Below are positions 52,751 to 64,000 of a stretch of DNA of 64,000 nucleotides, in pieces. The notes below the pieces were generated by a model that was not told where the DNA came from, searched no databases, and worked only from the letters and a program-made list of their open reading frames with translations. The stretch spans positions 62,001 through 126,000 of the forward strand of contig VXNY01000029.1 in the NCBI GenBank assembly GCA_009840305.1, read 5' to 3'. Both the position numbers and the translations under genes were made by a program. Origin of the DNA: Gammaproteobacteria bacterium (GTDB taxonomy: Bacteria > Pseudomonadota > Gammaproteobacteria > Pseudomonadales > Azotimanducaceae). How positions within the stretch are numbered: the first letter of the stretch is position 1; every line of letters begins with the position of its first letter.

Positions 52751-54826
52751 GTGAACGCAAAAAACGCCCTAGCTGTAGACATTGGTGGCACGTTTACTGA
52801 CGTGGTATTACAACTGGATCAACAGTTGCATGCAACAAAAGTACTCACTACGCGAGACGATCCGAGCGAAGCAGTCATCGCGGGAATTCAGCAGCTCTTT
52901 GTTGAGAGTGGAGCGAGTGCGGAGCACATCTCTCTTGTGTTGCATGGTACGACACTCGCGACAAATGCCATCATCGAAAGGCGCGGCGCAAAAACTGCTT
53001 TGCTGACTACATCAGGACATCGAGACATTCTTGAAATGGCGTTCGAGAATCGCTTTGAACAGTACGATGTGAATATCGAACGGCCGACTCCTTTGGTACC
53101 ACGCAAGCTACGAATTCCAATCACCGAACGGGTAACCGCAAATGGAGACGTATTGGTGCCACTTGATGAATCCTCTGTGCAACAAGCCATTGATCTTCTG
53201 CTTGAGGAGGAAATTGAAAGTGTAGCAATTGGTTTTTTGCATGCGTATCGAAATGGAGACCACGAAGCGCGAGTTGCGGAACTAGTACGCAATCGAATGA
53301 ATTCAATTCCACTAAGCTTGTCCAGCGACGTTTGTCCAGAGATCAGAGAGTACGAACGTTTGTCGACAACTTGCGCAAATGCGTATGTGTTGCCCTTGAT
53401 GAGCAAGTATCTGTTATCCTTACAAGAAAAGTTGAATGCACTACACTTTCGGTGTCCGTACTTGATGATGACCTCCGGTGGTGGATTAACGAGTCTCGAA
53501 ACTGCGGCCAAATATCCGATCCGTTTGGTTGAATCCGGTCCAGCCGGTGGGGCGATTCTAGCGGGTGTAATTTCACAGGAATTAGCATTGGATAAGGTAT
53601 TGTCATTCGATATGGGGGGTACTACCGCGAAACTCTGCCTCCTCGATCAGGGGAAGACGATTCTGTCTCGAGCATTCGAAGTCGATCGAACATACCGGTT
53701 TAAGAAAGGCAGTGGGCTACCTGTGAGAATTCCTGTAATTGAGATGGTGGAAATTGGTGCTGGTGGTGGATCCATCGCGCAGGTTGATAAATTGGGTCGA
53801 ATTCAGATTGGACCAGAGAGTGCTGGTTCTGAACCGGGTCCCGCGTGCTATGGTTCAGGAGGTAGCGAACCGACTGTAACCGACGCGGACTGTGTCTTAG
53901 GTCGACTCGATCCAAGTAATTTTGCAGGTGGGTATCTGCAGTTAGACACACCGGCGGCTACTCAAGCTATATCTACAAAGGTCGGGGCTCCCCTAGCTCT
54001 ATCGTTAGAAGACACTGCTTTGGGAATTTCTGAGATCGTCGATGAAAACATGACTGCTGCAGCTCAAAGTCACGCTACGGAATGGGGAAAGTCGGTTCAT
54101 GATCGAACGTTGATCGCCTTTGGTGGGGCCGCCCCCCTACATGCCGCGCGAATGCTCGAAAAGATGAACTTGGCACGAGTGATCATTCCCGAAGGAGCAG
54201 GGGTTGGTTCTGCTATTGGTTTTATCTTCGCACCTATTTCATACGAAGTCGTTCGAAGTCGGCATTTGTTATTGTCTGAATTCGATGAAAACCTCGTGAG
54301 CGAAATCATTCGGGACATGCGCGAGGAAGCGAAATCGGTAGTTACATCTGCTCTTCACGGTTCTGAGGAGGTCACAGAAACAGCTACTGCATTTATGCGT
54401 TACGTCGGACAAGGTCATGAGGTGACTGTGTCTTTTGGGTCGGAATCTATCAACAGGCAACTGTTACTGCAAAATTTTGAGAAAACATACACGGAGTTGT
54501 ACGGTAAGGTGATACCAGATGCCGAGATTGAAGTGATGAGTTGGACATTAAACGTTTCTACCAAAACTCAAGGAATCGAGAATGTGGAGGACAACGGACA
54601 CGACTCTGCGTCCATCAATGAGTCTCTCAAGACACATGAACTAGTTGACATTCGCGGTACGCATGAAGCAACAGTCATCGGACGCGAGTACTTAAGTCCT
54701 AACACGACGGTAGAGGGACCTGCGCTAATAACTGAAAGACATACGACTACGGTGGTTCCACCGGGCTACCAAATCCGAAAGTTGTCACCATCGAACCACT
54801 TATCGCTTGAACGGGTATCCACGTGA
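52751..54826 (+). CDS. hyuA: Hydantoinase/oxoprolinase family subunit A (HyuA-like)
   Basis: This 691-residue protein has an actin-like ATPase fold. An N-terminal AVDIGGTFTDVV segment is followed by HGTTLATNAIIERRGAKTALLTT. The hydantoinase A core has SFDMGGTTAKLC and GAGGGSIAQVD, and a C-terminal tail follows. Family members hydrolyse ATP-dependently N-methylhydantoin, 5-oxoproline or related cyclic amides; acetone carboxylases are a further branch. The substrate is not evident. The start is GTG 52751 with AGGAGA upstream. The stop overlaps the B subunit start by four bases. Confidence 0.9.
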   Translation: MNAKNALAVDIGGTFTDVVLQLDQQLHATKVLTTRDDPSEAVIAGIQQLFVESGASAEHISLVLHGTTLATNAIIERRGAKTALLTTSGHRDILEMAFENRFEQYDVNIERPTPLVPRKLRIPITERVTANGDVLVPLDESSVQQAIDLLLEEEIESVAIGFLHAYRNGDHEARVAELVRNRMNSIPLSLSSDVCPEIREYERLSTTCANAYVLPLMSKYLLSLQEKLNALHFRCPYLMMTSGGGLTSLETAAKYPIRLVESGPAGGAILAGVISQELALDKVLSFDMGGTTAKLCLLDQGKTILSRAFEVDRTYRFKKGSGLPVRIPVIEMVEIGAGGGSIAQVDKLGRIQIGPESAGSEPGPACYGSGGSEPTVTDADCVLGRLDPSNFAGGYLQLDTPAATQAISTKVGAPLALSLEDTALGISEIVDENMTAAAQSHATEWGKSVHDRTLIAFGGAAPLHAARMLEKMNLARVIIPEGAGVGSAIGFIFAPISYEVVRSRHLLLSEFDENLVSEIIRDMREEAKSVVTSALHGSEEVTETATAFMRYVGQGHEVTVSFGSESINRQLLLQNFEKTYTELYGKVIPDAEIEVMSWTLNVSTKTQGIENVEDNGHDSASINESLKTHELVDIRGTHEATVIGREYLSPNTTVEGPALITERHTTTVVPPGYQIRKLSPSNHLSLERVST

Positions 54827-56478
54827 GCTTAGTAGGAAACATTGAAAAACAATTGGTCTGGGATCGCTTACTTGCGATCGTTGAAGATCAGGCACAAACG
54901 CTGATGCGTACCGCGTTCTCACCTGTAGTGCGAGAAGCTGGTGACCTGTCCGCTGGAGTGTTTAACACTGACGGTGAAATGCTCGCACAAGCGATTACAG
55001 GTACTCCCGGTCATGTGAACGCGATGGCAAGATCGGTACCAAACTTTCTCGCTGAAGTGCCGATTTCACAGATGCGGGAAGGTGATGTTCTACTCACCAA
55101 TGACCCGTGGCTTGCCACCGGTCACCTCAATGATTTCACGTTGGTGACTCCGACATTTCTGAACGGTAGGGTTGTAGCGTTGTTTGCATCCACGAGTCAC
55201 ATTGCCGATGTTGGAGGTCGTGGTTTTGGACCCGATGCGAATGAAGTGTATGAAGAAGGTATTCAGATTCCAATAACTTATCTATTCAAACAAGGCCAAG
55301 TTCAGGCAGAGTTATTACGATTGATTCGTGCAAACGTGCGCGATCCCGTTGTCGCTGAGGGAGACTTGTATTCATTGACTGCTTGCAACAACGTAGGTGC
55401 TGAGAAGTTAATTGACACAATGAATGAATTTCAAATTGATGACCTATCTGACATCAGCGACATGATCCTGAATGCGTCTAGAGACGCGATGCATCAAGAG
55501 ATTCAGAAGTTAAATGACGGGACCTATCGATATGACATGACTGTGGACGGGTACGATCAACCTGTTCATGTAGTCTGTGCACTCACAATATCTGGTGATC
55601 GAATTGCGATCGACTTTACCGGTACTACCGGGGTGTCTAGGTACGGTATTAACGTTCCTCTGCCATATTGCGAGGCGTATGCTTCTTTTGGAGTCCGATG
55701 CTTGGTCGGAAACGACATTCCGAACAACGCCGGGTCGTTAGCACCGATAGAGGTTGTGGCACCTGCTGGGTGCATTCTAAATGCAGAGCCACCCTGTGCA
55801 GTGTCCGCACGCCATGCCCTCGGACAAATGCTACCCGACGTGGTGATAGGGTGCCTCAGCCAGGTTTTACCGGAAGAGGTTCCTTGCGAGGGGGCTTCGT
55901 GTATTTGGAATCCAGTACTCATGAGTGATTCGACAGCAAGCATGAACTTCAACGCGCCAGAATTTGTGATCAATCCAATTTTTAATGGAGGAACAGGTGC
56001 TAGAGTTCACAAAGATGGACTGTCAACTACTGCGTTTCCTTCTGGCGTGAGAACGACTTCAACAGAAGTAAATGAGATCACATCACCGTTGGTATTTTTG
56101 CGCCGTGAATACTTGAGAGACTCTGGTGGACCAGGTAAATACCGTGGTGGGTTGGGTCAAATAATTGAAATAACGCATACACATAAAGCGCCGTTTGTAC
56201 TCTCGAAGATGTTTGAAAGAGTGCAGCACCCTGCGCGAGGTCGTAGCGGTGGGCTGAATGGTGCCGTTGGTCGAGTGTATTTAAAAGAGGGCGAGGAATA
56301 CAGTGGAAAAGGCAAAGAGTGGATTCCAGCAGGAGCTACGCTAGTATTTGAAACTCCTGGAGGGGGCGGGTGGGGCGAACCGATCTCACGGAATGCCTCT
56401 ATGTTGCGAGCAGACATTGATAGTGGATTGGTTTCCCACGGACAAATGTCACGAGTTTATGTCGTAACCGAAGAGTAG
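54823..56478 (+). CDS. hyuB: Hydantoinase/oxoprolinase family subunit B (HyuB-like)
   Basis: This 551-residue B subunit completes the pair. Conserved parts are FSPVVREAGDLSAGVFN near the N-terminus, GHVNAMARSVPNF, the metal-contacting ending of NDPWLATGHLNDFT, and HIADVGGRGFG. It also has RHALGQMLPDVV and the C-terminal GGGGWGEP ending. It is translationally coupled to the A subunit (ATG-free overlap GTGA). Confidence 0.9.
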   Translation: MSLVGNIEKQLVWDRLLAIVEDQAQTLMRTAFSPVVREAGDLSAGVFNTDGEMLAQAITGTPGHVNAMARSVPNFLAEVPISQMREGDVLLTNDPWLATGHLNDFTLVTPTFLNGRVVALFASTSHIADVGGRGFGPDANEVYEEGIQIPITYLFKQGQVQAELLRLIRANVRDPVVAEGDLYSLTACNNVGAEKLIDTMNEFQIDDLSDISDMILNASRDAMHQEIQKLNDGTYRYDMTVDGYDQPVHVVCALTISGDRIAIDFTGTTGVSRYGINVPLPYCEAYASFGVRCLVGNDIPNNAGSLAPIEVVAPAGCILNAEPPCAVSARHALGQMLPDVVIGCLSQVLPEEVPCEGASCIWNPVLMSDSTASMNFNAPEFVINPIFNGGTGARVHKDGLSTTAFPSGVRTTSTEVNEITSPLVFLRREYLRDSGGPGKYRGGLGQIIEITHTHKAPFVLSKMFERVQHPARGRSGGLNGAVGRVYLKEGEEYSGKGKEWIPAGATLVFETPGGGGWGEPISRNASMLRADIDSGLVSHGQMSRVYVVTEE

Positions 56479-57222: not shown

Positions 57223-59112
57223 TTACTGTTGAGTACTACGCGACTCTAGCTTGAGACCGGTTCGTTCTGTATCCGTCAGAAACGATTCAATGTGCTCGAT
57301 CTGTTCGTCGGTGAAGGGGTTATAGGACTCTGCTATTCGCTGCAGGAGTTTAAAAGCTACCCTTCCTTGAGCTTTTGGCGTGGGAAATTTCTCAAGTTGT
57401 TCATACGCCTCTTGTGGGCGTAGTCTCATTGCAAATTCACCGTAGAACTCTACATGTTGGTCTTCCGGAATCTCTTCAGTGAACTCGGTGACTGAATCCA
57501 CATTGTTACTCTGATTGAACAACGCTTGTCCGATCCCTGCGTACGCGGTCATGCGCCCGGGTCCATCCCGTACTTGCGGCAACAATTCCTTGGCTTTCGA
57601 GATATCCTCGCGGGCTATCGCACCGACGATACTTCCTTCCCAACCAGAACCGGACTCGTCGACAGGATACTCTAAAGCAAGTTTAAACAAGGATGGGCCC
57701 GTCTCGGGGGTAACACGGAATAAGAGATACTGAAGGAACTCAGCGCGAGAATACCCCTTTGGAATTTCCAAATCCGGGTTGTCTAAAAACCAAGTGAACG
57801 CATCCTCGATGTTGTTCGATGCCCAGTTTTGGAGCATGATATACATGACAGGCCATCGGGTATCTGGATCGGAAATCTCATCTAGGTACTCGGGGGTTTC
57901 GTGGGGAAACTGCCGAGTCAAAGACCAAATACCCTCAATAAGGGCATCCTCTCTATATTCGGTTGGAAGCGACTCCAACTCGCGTAACACTTCCCGAGGA
58001 CTATTGCCGATCCAAGTCGAAATCACTGTTTCTTCCAAGCGTTCCTGTAGCGGAAACAACGGGACTTCAGAAACAGCGCTTAGTGCCGTGTGTGGGTCGC
58101 GGTATGACCATCGCCTTACCAAGTCGAAGACCACCGGTCGAGCTGTTTCCCGAAACAGTTCTACCGCTTGTGCAAAGACTGTTCCGAAATCTTCTGTTTC
58201 TACTCGACTCGACAGTGTATCGCTGATTAAGACAGTTCTGATCTGACGATCTTGGATAGCATTAGCCAGTTCCGCAAACTTCTCGTATCCGTCCTTCTCA
58301 ATGATTGCTATCGCGATCTGATGAAGTTGGTTACTCTCGTCTTCCCCAAAATTGTTGCTGCTGAGCACTTCCTCCCATGCTGCTGTAGGATTATCAAGCG
58401 GCTTATCTTTCTCAATCGAAACCAATAGGTCTCTAGCTGTAGAGGAACTGATGGTTAACTGCTCCGCTATCAGCAACTTCACGTCGTCAGTGCTATCCCA
58501 GTTTGCCCGAACGATTTGCTCGAAGATCGCTGTCTTTCCCTCGTCACTGAGGGTGGGAACATGTTGTTCAGCATGAGCCAGTGCTGAATCTAGGTCGATC
58601 AACGACCAATCGCGATAGATCACCGAAGCGAAATATTCATTCAGCTTCGTGGGAAACGATTCGGCATTCATGAGAGCCCGGATCGGATCAAGAGTCGCAA
58701 ATCTGCGAAAAATCTGAACTTGCGCTGCACGTTGCTTTTCAGTGTTTTTAAGATTGTGTGACTGTTCGAGTAATTCGACTATCGTCGAAACATTTGCGTT
58801 CTGCAACATGTTGTCGAGCGCGACTAAACCATCCCGGTAACTTGTTGGTTCCTCGAAAATTGATGTCAGCTCTGAAGATTGCACCAGTTCAACATTGTTG
58901 TTGTTACTTGCGGTGCGATCAAGTGTTGGGACAACACTGGGAGTTCTGGATTCTCGATCATACATACCGAAGGTCGTCTGAGTATCTTCATTTGAAAACG
59001 GACGGAAGAACACTACAAAGCCAACGCACAGCACTATGGATAGTCCCGTGCCAACTAACAGTGGAACGAGCTTAGCTCGTCGTAAAGAATTATTAATCTC
59101 TCTACCAGACAT
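57223..59112 (-). CDS. Helical-repeat membrane-anchored protein, type A copy
   Basis: About 629 residues. One N-terminal membrane helix (about residues 14-36) is followed by a low-complexity linker and a long alpha-helical repeat region. It contains W-D-P-A-L style segments such as RRWSYRDPHTALSAVS and QNWASNNIEDAFTWF, reminiscent of HEAT/TPR-type solenoids. It ends with FTDEQIEHIESFL and a short polar tail. The gene is the type A member of the near unit and 59206-61002 its type B partner. The A' copy at 61316-63211 aligns along the whole chain. Topology suggests a periplasmic domain. No catalytic motif or named family is recognised. ATG 59112 is preferred over GTG 59127. Confidence 0.8.
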   Translation of the reverse strand: MSGREINNSLRRAKLVPLLVGTGLSIVLCVGFVVFFRPFSNEDTQTTFGMYDRESRTPSVVPTLDRTASNNNNVELVQSSELTSIFEEPTSYRDGLVALDNMLQNANVSTIVELLEQSHNLKNTEKQRAAQVQIFRRFATLDPIRALMNAESFPTKLNEYFASVIYRDWSLIDLDSALAHAEQHVPTLSDEGKTAIFEQIVRANWDSTDDVKLLIAEQLTISSSTARDLLVSIEKDKPLDNPTAAWEEVLSSNNFGEDESNQLHQIAIAIIEKDGYEKFAELANAIQDRQIRTVLISDTLSSRVETEDFGTVFAQAVELFRETARPVVFDLVRRWSYRDPHTALSAVSEVPLFPLQERLEETVISTWIGNSPREVLRELESLPTEYREDALIEGIWSLTRQFPHETPEYLDEISDPDTRWPVMYIMLQNWASNNIEDAFTWFLDNPDLEIPKGYSRAEFLQYLLFRVTPETGPSLFKLALEYPVDESGSGWEGSIVGAIAREDISKAKELLPQVRDGPGRMTAYAGIGQALFNQSNNVDSVTEFTEEIPEDQHVEFYGEFAMRLRPQEAYEQLEKFPTPKAQGRVAFKLLQRIAESYNPFTDEQIEHIESFLTDTERTGLKLESRSTQQ

Positions 59113-59205
59113 AGTGCGACCTAACACATCGTCTGAGGACGAGCATAGATTGACTCGTGGACTGCGTCTCGTTGGGAGCGTAAACTGAGGGTAAGTACAT
59201 CGTAG

Positions 59206-61002
59206 TTATCGGTAAGCTTGAATTTTTTCTATTTGCTCGTCGGTGAAGTACCAATGGGTATCATAAAAATTGTCGAAGCGTGAACGGGGACGGCGAAAGT
59301 AGAATGCCGCTGTTTCTTGGTATTTACGCTGAGGAAGTAGTTCAAGGACTTCATACAAACCTATTTGGTCTTGGTAGAAAAGTTCGTTGATGATCGCTCG
59401 AAAATACTCGTCCTGTAATGTCTCTGGTAATTCTGAGCCTAGTTTGATTGCGGCCAGAGACTCATTTTGGTTCACCATAGCACGACCCAGTTCAGCAGCA
59501 GCTCTCGACTTCGTTTCGCCATCGCGAACTTGAGTAAGCATCGCAGTTGCGCGCTGTACGTCGTTCTGTGCGAGATTCCGAATGACTTCGTACTCCAGTC
59601 CCATCTGACCTTCGGAAATATCTTGACTCAGCGCGGTACTCATCGCAAGATCAGGATCTATTTCGACAAGTGTTGGTAAAAGGTCACGTAATAACATTGG
59701 CCGTAGAGTCTCGTCTTGGGTACCGATCCAATCAAGCGCGGCCGAAGCATCAGCACGAGCCCATTCAGCGGCGAGTGCCCCTCCCAAGTCCTCGACACCG
59801 TGTGTAATTTCGTTCAACATCTTCAGCGCGTCCTGAGGAGAATCCCGCACAATCAATCGCATTGCATATTGCAGTACATACTTCCGTGAGTCGCGCGATA
59901 AGTACTGTGGAAGGAGTTCTATCGTCTCATAGGGAGAGTCTCTAACCATTTTCCATCCAATGTTCCTCAATAAATTGTCCTTCACGTACGTGGGACTAAT
60001 GACGAAATCAGTAACCGCTTTCAATGCTGCAATGGGATCAGTGTCCGCCCACTCGTGAACGACAACGAACGCGGCCGTTCGACGAACTTCTCCGTTAAAC
60101 TCGTCGAGTAGTTTAAAAGCAAGCTGTGGATCCTCTCGAGTGATGGGGGTGAGAATCGGAATGAGAATCTCACGGGGATAATCTATCTGAGGAATCGATT
60201 CCATTGCTTCAAATACAACATCGAATCCTTCTCGTTCCACCCATAGTTCGAGGATCGTCGCGAGCGCATCAATTTGCAAGGTCTCCACGCGACTGTCGTC
60301 TAGGATAGCGTTCCATGCACCTCTGGGATCATCAAATGCACGCATGACTAGACGCTCTTCCAGAATGTCAGCACCAACGGCTTCATGTCCAAACTCAAGC
60401 GCTAGTTCCAAAACGCGATCGGCAGACCAGTCATCTCGCATTCGCAAGATCGCTTTTAAACCGGTACGTTGATCAGCGTTACCCAGAGTTTTTAGGTGGG
60501 TAAGAGCTGCATCGACGTCCGAACTCGCCCATTCAAGAAAGATTGCTTCGACGATTGGTCTGCGACGATTCGATGGGAGCTCAGATGTATGTTGCATCGC
60601 TGCGTCTGGAGCTAATTCAGCAAAACGACGGAATATTTCGATTTGGGTACTTAACCTTTGATCGAAGTTACTTATCGCCTTCGAATCTTCAAGCAACGCG
60701 ATTATCTGATGTTGATCTGTCGAAGATAGTTTGGCGCGAACCGCTACCGACCGTGCGTAATCGTCCGTTGCAACTAGTAGGCTTTCGACGTCATCGCTGG
60801 GGGGAGTCCTACCCTGATTCGAACTAACCGATGTTCGCGATTGACGATCTTCGGGTACAACTTCGTTTGAAGAGATTGGATCACGTTGTTGGTCGTTCGC
60901 CACGAGCGATCCGTAAACCCACAGACCGATTCCGAATAACACCAATGGACCGAGCAATCCCACGCAAAACCATGTAATGAAATGGAGTGGACGACTTACC
61001 AT
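59206..61002 (-). CDS. Helical-repeat membrane-anchored protein, type B copy
   Basis: This 598-residue protein has a membrane helix at about residues 9-32, a Ser/Asp-rich linker and a solenoid with W-D-P-A-L segments (LEWASSDVDAALTHLKTLG, HEWADTDPIAALKAV, EWARADASAALDWIG). It ends in WYFTDEQIEKIQAYR. The helical start QIEIFRRFAEL matches the AQVQIFRRFATL of type A, so A and B are ancient paralogues. It lies directly upstream (in transcription) of the type A gene and is the full-length counterpart of the partial B' copy. Confidence 0.8.
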   Translation of the reverse strand: MVSRPLHFITWFCVGLLGPLVLFGIGLWVYGSLVANDQQRDPISSNEVVPEDRQSRTSVSSNQGRTPPSDDVESLLVATDDYARSVAVRAKLSSTDQHQIIALLEDSKAISNFDQRLSTQIEIFRRFAELAPDAAMQHTSELPSNRRRPIVEAIFLEWASSDVDAALTHLKTLGNADQRTGLKAILRMRDDWSADRVLELALEFGHEAVGADILEERLVMRAFDDPRGAWNAILDDSRVETLQIDALATILELWVEREGFDVVFEAMESIPQIDYPREILIPILTPITREDPQLAFKLLDEFNGEVRRTAAFVVVHEWADTDPIAALKAVTDFVISPTYVKDNLLRNIGWKMVRDSPYETIELLPQYLSRDSRKYVLQYAMRLIVRDSPQDALKMLNEITHGVEDLGGALAAEWARADASAALDWIGTQDETLRPMLLRDLLPTLVEIDPDLAMSTALSQDISEGQMGLEYEVIRNLAQNDVQRATAMLTQVRDGETKSRAAAELGRAMVNQNESLAAIKLGSELPETLQDEYFRAIINELFYQDQIGLYEVLELLPQRKYQETAAFYFRRPRSRFDNFYDTHWYFTDEQIEKIQAYR

Positions 61003-61315
61003 TTGTGAGTTTGAAGTTTTCTTCTACGGATTTATTTTCAATTGTAGCACATCAAACCTTGTAACTGTGTCTCGAACCCCCTAAAACCGCAGGGATCTTC
61101 TTCGCAACGCCGCGATGGCGTAGCATATCCGTCATCGAATAGTGATCGAATGTCATTTGGTTGTGTGCGCTAAATCGTGGAAGTCGTCAGGAGACGCGGA
61201 TGGTAGCGATATTAGTACCCTATCACTTAGCGCGGAAGTCGTGCCAACCGCTATAGTGTATTCGCCAGAGTTTTCCAGCTTAGTTTTTCTATATCTTCTT
61301 TAGCGAGTTAGATTA
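61003..61315. other. Gap between the two B-A units (313 bases)
   Basis: This separates the 3' end of A' from the 5' end of B, so it should hold the B-A unit promoter and the end of the upstream transcript. No gene or clear stem-loop with T tract was found. The other gaps in the array are 78-93 bases. Confidence 0.45.
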
Positions 61316-63211
61316 CTATCGATTGCTGGGAGAGTCTAGTTCGAGTACGGCTCGTTCTTTGTCTGTCAAGAACGACTCAAGGTGATCGATCTGTTCTTCG
61401 TTGTAGGGGTTGTTTGAAGACTTTTCGGCTCGCTGAAGAAGTCCGAGTGCCGCGCTAGCTTGTGCTTCAGGAGTTGGCAGCACGTCTATCTGTTTGTAGG
61501 CGACTTGGGGAGACAATCTCGGTACAAATTGACCGAAGAACTCAACTCGATCTTCTTCGGCAATCTCTTCTGTAAGCTCGATGACCGAATTCATACTCTG
61601 ATCTTGGTTGAAAACCACCTGTCCGATCATCACATAGGCATTTAATTGTCCCGGCCCATCTCGTACTTTTGGGAGCAACTCTTTAGCGTTTGCTAAGTCC
61701 CTGTAGGCTAAAAACCCGACGACATGGCTCTCCCAACCAGACCCTGATTCATCGACAGGATACTTGAGAGCAAGTTCAATTAAGGACCGAGCACTTTCTG
61801 GGGATACATTATTTAAAAGTGGCGCGAGTAACGAAGCACGAGAATGTCCTAATGGGACTTCCAAATCTGGGTTGTCTAAGAACCAAGTGAATGCTTCTTC
61901 AATATCTTGATATGCCCAGTTTTGGAGCATGGTCCACATGACGTTCAATTTAGTTTGTGGATCGGACACCTTATCCAGATGTTTGGTGGTTTCTTTAGGA
62001 TGCCTACCACTCATGGACCATATTCCCTCGGTAACAGCGATCTCTCTGTATTCGACCGGAAGCACATCCAACTGTTCTAGCACTTCCATGGGTCTTCCAC
62101 CGACCCAATATTTAATCACACGTTCTTCCAAACGTTTCCTAAGTCGATCGTCGGGGACGTTCGTCATCGCGTTCAGAGCGGCGAGTGGATCCTTGAAACA
62201 CCATCTTCCAGCGAGTTCGAACAGAACCGTACGTGCAGTTTCGTGAAACAGTTGCAGTGCGTGTTCGAAGACGACACCAATTTCATCAGTATCCAATCGA
62301 TCGGATAGAACTCGGCTAATCAGGCCAGTGCGAGTACGACGATCTTGAATCGAGTTAGCTAGTTCTGCAAACTTGGAGTATCCGTCCTTCTCAATTACTG
62401 CCATCCCGATTTGCTGGAGCTGATATCGTTCGTCGTCGCCAACATTCTCAATGCTCAGCACTTCCTTCCATGCTTCGATCGGGTTATCGAGAGGTTTGTC
62501 ATTCTCAATCTTTTCCAGCACGAAAGTCGAGGTGTAGGGATTCACTTGCAACCGTTCCGCTAATTGCAACTTCGCATCGTCAGAAAGCTCCCACGCGGCT
62601 CGAAATATCTGTTCAATAACCGTTGATGTTCCCTCCCAACTGAGGCTAGGAACGTGTTGTTCACCAAAATTCAGCGCGTCATCAAGGTCAATCGCGGACC
62701 ATTCACGATAAATCAGAGAAACGAAATGTTCATACAGACTTTTGGGAAATGACTCAGCGTAAGTGAGAGCTTGGATTGGATCAAGTGTGGCAAATTTGCG
62801 AAAAATCTGAGTCTGCGTCGACTGCAACCGTTCAACACCTTGAAGATCGTGCGACTGGTCAAGTAAATCTATTAACATCGATACGTTTGCGTTGTTCAAC
62901 AGATCGTCGAGCGCTAGGGAACTTTCAAAGTAAGTTTGCAACTTGAAAATCGATGCTAGATTGGACGACATCCTTGGTCCTTGATCAGATTCCCTGCTCT
63001 CAGTTTCGTCTACGGGTGCGACATGGTGAGGAGTATCTGACCCACTCTCGTCAGCGGTGGAATTCGTTTGCACACCTTCATCATGGAAGGGATTGAAGAG
63101 AATTAGAGCCCCAACGCACAGGACGACGGACAATCCTGTTCCAATCAGATAGGGTACAAGTTGAAAATGCAACCCAGAATTTCTACGGTCTTGATTAGTC
63201 ACAACACGCAC
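61316..63211 (-). CDS. Helical-repeat membrane-anchored protein, type A' copy
   Basis: This 631-residue protein is a close paralogue of the type A gene. It has the same membrane helix (LIGTGLSVVLCVGALILF, about residues 23-40), the same ENDKPLDNPIEAWKEVLS-like region and the same closing block NEEQIDHLESFLTDKERA. The two copies align end to end, so their common ancestor already had this length. The start is GTG 63211 with GTG 63202 possible. It follows B' after 82 bases, as A follows B. Confidence 0.8.
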   Translation of the reverse strand: MRVVTNQDRRNSGLHFQLVPYLIGTGLSVVLCVGALILFNPFHDEGVQTNSTADESGSDTPHHVAPVDETESRESDQGPRMSSNLASIFKLQTYFESSLALDDLLNNANVSMLIDLLDQSHDLQGVERLQSTQTQIFRKFATLDPIQALTYAESFPKSLYEHFVSLIYREWSAIDLDDALNFGEQHVPSLSWEGTSTVIEQIFRAAWELSDDAKLQLAERLQVNPYTSTFVLEKIENDKPLDNPIEAWKEVLSIENVGDDERYQLQQIGMAVIEKDGYSKFAELANSIQDRRTRTGLISRVLSDRLDTDEIGVVFEHALQLFHETARTVLFELAGRWCFKDPLAALNAMTNVPDDRLRKRLEERVIKYWVGGRPMEVLEQLDVLPVEYREIAVTEGIWSMSGRHPKETTKHLDKVSDPQTKLNVMWTMLQNWAYQDIEEAFTWFLDNPDLEVPLGHSRASLLAPLLNNVSPESARSLIELALKYPVDESGSGWESHVVGFLAYRDLANAKELLPKVRDGPGQLNAYVMIGQVVFNQDQSMNSVIELTEEIAEEDRVEFFGQFVPRLSPQVAYKQIDVLPTPEAQASAALGLLQRAEKSSNNPYNEEQIDHLESFLTDKERAVLELDSPSNR

Positions 63212-63293
63212 TCTCTATCATGAAACAGAAACGTATGCGAACACTTAGAGCGCACTTTCTGAGGATCGTAGTGTGAGTTGAATAGCATTGAAC

Positions 63294-64000
63294 TTATTCG
63301 AAAGTTCGAATTTCTTCGAGTTGTTCATCGGTGAAGTATCGATGCGCATCTGCACCGAAGCCTGTGTCCCAAATCAGATATCTGGCAGCTTCTTGTTGAT
63401 ACTTGGGTTTAGGAAGGAGATCTAGAATTTCAGACAGTTCTACTCGATCTGTGTTATAGATTGCGTTGATTATTTCTCGGAAGTAGTCGTCCTGAAACGA
63501 CTCAGGTAATTCTGAGCCTAGTTCGATTGCGGCCGTTGAATCGTACTTATTCGCCAAAGCACGCCCTAGTTCAGAGTATGCTCTTTTCTTCGTGTCTTCG
63601 TGATCTCGGACATGAGGTAACATTTCGGTGGCTCGATGTACATCGGTCCGCGCTAGAATCCGAATGACTTCGTACTCCAATCCCAATTGACCTTCGGCAA
63701 TCGATTGATTCAATGCGGTGCTCAATGCTAAATCGGGATCCTTTTCCACGAGTGCCGGCATGACACTTTGCAATAACGCTGGATGTAGCGATTCTTCTTG
63801 CAAACCTATCCAATTGAGTGCTGCACGAGTATCTGAAGTAGCCCACTCTTCAACGAGAGCCCCACCCAGTTCTTCCACACCGTTCGGGACACTGTTCAGA
63901 AGGTCCACTGCATCTGCAGGGGACTTCCGAACAATTTGTTTCAAAGCGTTGCCCTGTATCCATTGAAGAGTAAAACCGGACAAATATTTGGACAGGTTTG
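63294..64000 (-). CDS. Helical-repeat protein, type B' copy (partial)
   Basis: The frame stays open to the last base of the window, so the gene starts beyond it and only the C-terminal 235 or so residues are seen. These align with the last third of B: EEWATSDTRAALNWIG against EWARADASAALDWIG, and GLEYEVIRILARTDVHRATEML against the corresponding B segment. It ends with RYFTDEQLEEIRTFE. It stands ahead of A' exactly as B stands ahead of A. Confidence 0.85.
   Translation of the reverse strand, partial: NLSKYLSGFTLQWIQGNALKQIVRKSPADAVDLLNSVPNGVEELGGALVEEWATSDTRAALNWIGLQEESLHPALLQSVMPALVEKDPDLALSTALNQSIAEGQLGLEYEVIRILARTDVHRATEMLPHVRDHEDTKKRAYSELGRALANKYDSTAAIELGSELPESFQDDYFREIINAIYNTDRVELSEILDLLPKPKYQQEAARYLIWDTGFGADAHRYFTDEQLEEIRTFE

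Follow-up and report, generated by a model that had tools for sequence, protein, structure and literature searches.

Two-gene units of a large solenoid protein family expanded in one clade of a gammaproteobacterial genus

The source assembly G000 revealed a large family of solenoid proteins whose genes are organized predominantly as pairs and have been duplicated as two-gene units, and the expansion of this family marks one clade of the genus. In total, 74 open reading frames (ORFs) of at least 400 aa were assigned to the family, together accounting for 136,080 bp of 2,621,006 bp (5.2%). The copying of the pairs as units suggests a joint function of the two partners on the outer side of the inner membrane.

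The four-gene array and the predicted fold of its products

The window, i.e., the whole stretch of 64,000 nucleotides analyzed (G000:C34:62001-126000), ends in four genes on the minus strand, organized as follows (window positions):

57223-59127, minus strand: B' (a15_4of4), 634 aa, membrane-anchored (TM) solenoid, second gene of unit 2
59128-59205, minus strand: gap between A' and B', 78 nt
59206-61002, minus strand: A' (a15_3of4), 598 aa, membrane-anchored (TM) solenoid, first gene of unit 2
60898-60987, minus strand: predicted membrane anchor of A', an N-terminal helix spanning residues 6-35
61003-61315, minus strand: spacer between the units, 313 nt
61316-63211, minus strand: B (a15_2of4), 631 aa, solenoid, second gene of unit 1
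63212-63293, minus strand: gap between A and B, 82 nt
63294-64000, minus strand: 3' part of A (a15_1of4), the gene running 1081 bp past the window

The order B', A', B, A on one strand, given in an earlier note on this DNA, was thus confirmed, with transcription running from A via B and A' to B'. As the note had also stated, like genes match each other (56% identity between A and A', 54% between B and B'), and A' and B' share 26% identity over A' residues 54-597 (E 7.4e-36); judging from this alignment, A and B are homologous, yet far apart. The note's expectation that the array might continue past the window applies to A itself (595 aa when complete, C34:125294-127081), since the solenoid tandem ends at four genes on the extended contig. 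Upstream of A, a divergent CarboxypepD_reg gene starts at a distance of 558 bp and a lone solenoid gene lies at 4.6 kb; a solenoid pair occupies C34:140-144 kb. On the other side, genes for the A and B subunits of a hydantoinase/oxoprolinase (window 52751-56478, plus strand) are convergent with the array.

The GC content of the array (0.476) is close to that of window positions 1-57000 (0.471), so that an origin as foreign DNA was rejected. Only two promoter-like sites were found, none of them on the minus strand, the mean for shuffled sequence being higher (10.8), and nine terminator-like sites against 9.1 expected gave no usable signal. The A'-B' gap (59128-59205) is in frame with both A' and B', the sole stop being the TAA that ends A', and a matching stretch in contig L058, which is related, encodes a similar run of residues; this may point to a conserved leader or to B' starting further upstream.

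Based on a hydrophobicity count, 71 of the 74 members carry an N-terminal TM-like stretch, and 72 of 74 have more positive charge before than after it, so that by the charge rule the C-terminal part would be periplasmic. The earlier note had described membrane-anchored proteins that perhaps act at the outer face of the inner membrane; the anchor is borne out by hydrophobicity and charge over the family, and the location agrees with the predicted topology. The mean pI is 4.6. An action of thioredoxin on solenoid disulfides is unlikely, 49 of 74 members having no Cys after the TM stretch. The AlphaFold model of A' (mean pLDDT 90.3) upheld the predicted helical solenoid, with a helix at residues 6-35, a low-confidence stretch (39-68) and then 31 helices within residues 72-570; the model displays the tandem antiparallel helix pairs and the superhelix that define the alpha-solenoid fold class. 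Its structural matches are mostly PPR, HEAT, importin, and adaptin solenoids, at Z values below the level of about 13 under which the tool advises caution for repeats. SusD, LapB, and MgtE_N are absent among the 50 matches listed, which excludes none of the three.

Searches of the members against Pfam and NCBIfam assigned no family, in line with the earlier note, which could name none. Pfam repeat models matched few members at E <=0.01 (TPR_19 2/74, HEAT_2 2/74, PPR 1/74); the best family match of the window solenoids had E 0.019, none lay above a curated cut-off, and membership of the TPR, HEAT, or PPR families was not found by a curated repeat-model match. Besides this paucity of Pfam matches, the family differs from these alpha-solenoids in its consensus repeat signature, W-A-x-x-D-P-x-x-A-L, which to our knowledge is unlike those of TPR, PPR, and HEAT. 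Distant relatives matched no Pfam family either, and one of them, searched against the PDB, revealed no sequence relative. None of the 74 members matched a SusD model at E <=0.01, and a PDB profile search returned one chain of the SusD superfamily (E 0.04). Weak profile matches to LapB/YciM were also obtained (E 6e-4 to 0.04). LapB is likewise an inner-membrane-anchored helical-repeat protein, but it faces the cytoplasm and is single-copy, unlike the solenoids, which are multicopy (74 ORFs) and predicted to be periplasmic (72/74 by charge). The literature search found no title or abstract opening describing this solenoid family.

Pairing, unit duplication, and the split between partners

A' matched 76 and B' 77 places in the assembly, pieces included; the 74 ORFs were kept from 76 hits after two short or nested ones had been set aside. 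Defining an array as same-strand solenoid genes with gaps <600 bp, we obtained 27 arrays, namely 14 two-gene arrays, four four-gene arrays, a ten-gene and a thirteen-gene array, and seven lone genes, so that 19 of the 20 multi-gene arrays hold an even number of genes. One of the lone genes, a25, is a second gene with 90% identity to a19_2 over 1996 bp; the copied stretch (G000:C34:418421-420415 / 261432-263424) includes the 3' end of the missing upstream first gene and, read from this match, a25 is an orphan from partial unit copying.

In the tree of all 74 members, mirror clades separate the odd-numbered from the even-numbered genes in many arrays, with the partners of a01, a07, a08, a12, and a13 remaining close kin. 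Over 33 pairs, taken from all even arrays plus genes one to twelve of the thirteen-gene array, the distances between first genes were strongly correlated with those between second genes (Mantel r 0.94); in 5000 permutations, r never exceeded 0.24. In 30 of the 33 pairs, the nearest other first gene is closer than the partner. The proposal of the earlier note that a B-A pair was duplicated as a unit with its pairing kept is supported. A reading of A and B as types shared by the whole family, in turn, was not supported: a single global split into A and B was rejected in AU tests (p-AU 2.9e-7 in a quick and 1.1e-8 in a careful analysis), in which 24 of the 74 rows, picked after the 74-member tree had been seen, were used and 12 first genes were constrained together. 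Holding these 12 together cost 181 log units in the careful mixture-model tree. It follows that several lineages have an A/B split of their own; in the 24-row mixture-model tree, these are a01 (100/100), a13 (99/99), a11/a17 (100/99), and a fourth group of a18, a20, and a26 (100/100). Pairing thus seems, from these trees, to have evolved repeatedly, though part of this pattern could also be produced by lineage-internal gene conversion.

Adjacent sister copies were also seen in the distant relative G156 and in G010, a genus mate of G000. Among 218 genes (>=560 aa) from six genomes, with the copies of G003, G008, G013, and G014 sampled in part, mirror pairs recur, including the window lineage in G008, G007, and G014. 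The earlier note had named a wide occurrence of A genes without B as speaking against its reading. This applies in part: 7 of the 74 in G000 stand alone, lone genes are numerous in G007 and G014 (fragments included, G014 sampled in part), and relatives harbor homotypic arrays in which neighbors are closest kin (G003:C4, G007:C5:480 kb, G008:C1:99 kb). In G000, most genes stand in pairs. G007 additionally carries broken solenoid remnants.

For evolutionary rates, G000 was compared with G008, pairs below 40% identity being dropped. The 29 reciprocal best-hit solenoids revealed a median identity of 75% and a median dN/dS of 0.25, against 85% and 0.11 for 19 flanking genes; the solenoid genes are constrained, yet evolve faster than their surroundings. 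Partners have matching dS (r 0.96, 12 pairs), in contrast to adjoining genes of different units (r -0.12, seven pairs), which suggests that replacement or conversion affects entire units. Partner dN (r 0.88) and dN/dS (r 0.84) also covary over the 12 pairs. The mirror trees and the matched dS are explicable by linked inheritance alone; the dN/dS correlation exceeds what linked inheritance gives, but comes from 12 pairs of one species pair.

Distribution and neighboring genes

Solenoid matches were detected in 16 of 18 genomes of the genus, ten of which have at least 40 to 78 matches (a lower bound, with up to 72 candidates scored) and eight 0-7; G007, searched alone, gave 85, fragments included. 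In a UvrC tree of 14 genomes, which lacks G014 and also G012 (no UvrC match), its nine solenoid-rich genomes lie on one side of a 100/100 branch, and G001 and G004 grouped with solenoid-poor genomes in a separate 13-row tree. The expansion thus marks one clade of the genus. In wider samples, with the own genome counted, 9 of 293 genomes of the order (up to four candidates scored per genome) and 8 of 369 of the class (up to three) had a match. A Halalkalibacterium match (one of five loci; 54 residues, E 3e-4) was taken as chance. Close relatives include the MAGs Pseudomonadales bacterium CO36404bin_7 and Gammaproteobacteria bacterium SB0661_bin_12 and SB0666_bin_18, which we take to be sponge MAGs; a literature search by MAG name gave no confirmation of this origin for the SB06xx MAGs. 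A' had no match in phage and plasmid collections at E 1e-5, and carriage as plasmid or phage cargo was rejected.

The commonest recurrent neighbor is a secreted or lipoprotein-like protein with a C-terminal thioredoxin/AhpC-TSA domain, presumably TlpA-like. Among five such neighbors scanned, DUF4369 was above the cut-off in one, weaker in three, and unseen in one. Thioredoxin-fold matches, in counts that include generic thioredoxin matches, number 21-65 in the ten solenoid-rich genomes versus 2-7 in the other eight; the co-expansion with the solenoids is, however, one clade-level event. Proximity was assessed with 4000 random placements of places with E <1e-30 only, tandem copies being placed independently. 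Within 600 bp of a solenoid, G000 has 4 of 21 thioredoxin-fold places (expected 0.29, p 0.001) and G007 4 of 14 (expected 0.20, p 0.0002); at 2 kb, the numbers are four (expected 0.91, p 0.010) and five (expected 0.60, p 0.0005), respectively. Most places, 17/21 in G000 and 10/14 in G007, lie beyond 600 bp of any solenoid. A cluster of 21 thioredoxin-fold members within 3.5 kb of solenoids, 12 of them within 600 bp, carries CxxC in the second half of 16, though single linkage may have included a few unrelated proteins. The protein beside a26 has no CxxC. Thioredoxin-fold genes also occur in tandem runs, e.g., at G000:C33:138-145 kb.

A CarboxypepD_reg-type protein adjoins the window solenoid lineage in G000, G007, and G014, and ten such genes surround the window-lineage array at G014:C18:113858-163031. 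Co-expansion of this type is weak, with 0-11 matches per genome; G002, although solenoid-rich, has none, and G005 a single marginal one. Likewise, an Oar-like receptor lies beside solenoids in G000, G007, and G003, but no expansion was seen for the one receptor searched (0-4 matches per genome, pieces included). Overall, neighbors are not enriched in exported proteins (28/155 near versus 32/234 far, p 0.25). Further neighbors are a bacterial alpha-2-macroglobulin-like (A2M-family) protein (G000:C34:440782-444981) 165 bp from solenoid a27 and several ATPases (G000:C11:255922 and 259874; C34:328046 and 363017; others in G007 and G014). These ATPases, presumably DUF4143-like by their look and perhaps mobile, are located up to 3.5 kb from solenoid genes, seven of the eight no farther than 600 bp.

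Possible roles of the paired solenoids

We tentatively prefer a reading, quite possible if short of probable, in which inner-membrane-anchored periplasmic two-subunit solenoids passed repeatedly from like to unlike pairs and were multiplied into a repertoire. The proteins would be periplasm-facing alpha/alpha superhelices with repeats of about 31-36 residues, acting as two-subunit units. An ancestral solenoid may have been a dimer of like chains; after tandem duplication, the copies would have diverged, in several lineages independently, into obligate partners (paralogous heteromerization). Subsequent copying of the two-gene unit around the genome would have built up a repertoire that numbers dozens of genes. 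Each unit may offer a groove or scaffold to its own cognate protein or peptide outside the cytoplasm. Among possible partners or clients, the thioredoxin-fold proteins, and in the window lineage also the CarboxypepD_reg proteins, would be the likeliest; the former appear to be the best lead to a solenoid ligand. A hetero-complex of A and B is plausible, and the function may be that of a two-subunit envelope scaffold or receptor repertoire. A bolder version, namely a combinatorial envelope repertoire in which like dimers became obligate heterodimers several times and each unit is matched to its own thioredoxin-fold/beta-sandwich ligand, is rather doubtful.

Host interaction, with the solenoids as lineage-specific eukaryotic-like repeat proteins (ELRs) of sponge symbionts and their pairing incidental, we regard as unlikely. 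They would be displayed at, or released from, the cell surface and would bind host molecules or resist phagocytosis. The repeat fold in the A' model, the clade-specific expansion, and the fast yet constrained evolution would fit; moreover, one study (PMC8163846) reports an enrichment of TPR- and HEAT-type ELRs in sponge MAGs, and the solenoids resemble such repeat proteins of host-associated lineages. The N-terminal anchors, however, would place nearly all of them at the inner membrane, and the pairing would need a separate reason. Unlike sponge-symbiont ELRs, the solenoids are also nearly invisible to Pfam repeat models, predicted to be membrane-anchored, and paired.

The even array sizes might also be a by-product of mostly non-adaptive birth-and-death, in which similar adjacent two-gene blocks recombine, and the remnants in G007, unit-wise replacement, and the partial-unit copy a25 are what such turnover would leave behind. 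Three observations make this quite unlikely as the main cause, namely the constraint seen in 29 orthologue pairs (median dN/dS 0.25), the apparent arrival at pairing in separate lineages, and the correlated dN/dS of partners.

Capture of nutrients or peptides at the envelope, with the solenoids as periplasmic acceptors for TonB-dependent uptake, would resemble SusCD in function. The SusCD systems of Bacteroidota form dozens of two-gene pairs per genome, with a helical partner and with CarboxypepD_reg and thioredoxin/DUF4369 companions. The solenoids likewise form a repertoire of dozens of pairs, with thioredoxin-fold/DUF4369 and CarboxypepD_reg neighbors and, in three genomes, the adjoining Oar-like receptor. 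They differ in that both partners are homologous solenoids. No SusD model is among the families matched at E <=0.01, the one receptor counted is not co-expanded, and the anchor is predicted to lie at the inner membrane; such a role is improbable. A defence repertoire against phages or competitors is barely credible despite the diversified arrays and the presumably DUF4143-like ATPases beside some of them, since PADLOC gave stray matches only (the OloA model in up to 3/74 members, best E 1.8e-4) and A' had no match at E 1e-5 in the phage and plasmid collections.

About one base in twenty of this 2.6 Mb genome thus belongs to a family without a Pfam or NCBIfam name, which would probably escape repeat-protein surveys based on such models. 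Provided that pairing arose more than once in this family, the solenoids would offer a natural series of replicates for the transition from homodimer to heterodimer. Solenoid units and thioredoxin-fold proteins together separate one clade from its sister genomes and may bear on its way of life. Should the bolder version, with its combinatorial repertoire of matched pairs, be true, the solenoids would form a multigene recognition system, SusCD-like in scale, built on homologous alpha-solenoids.
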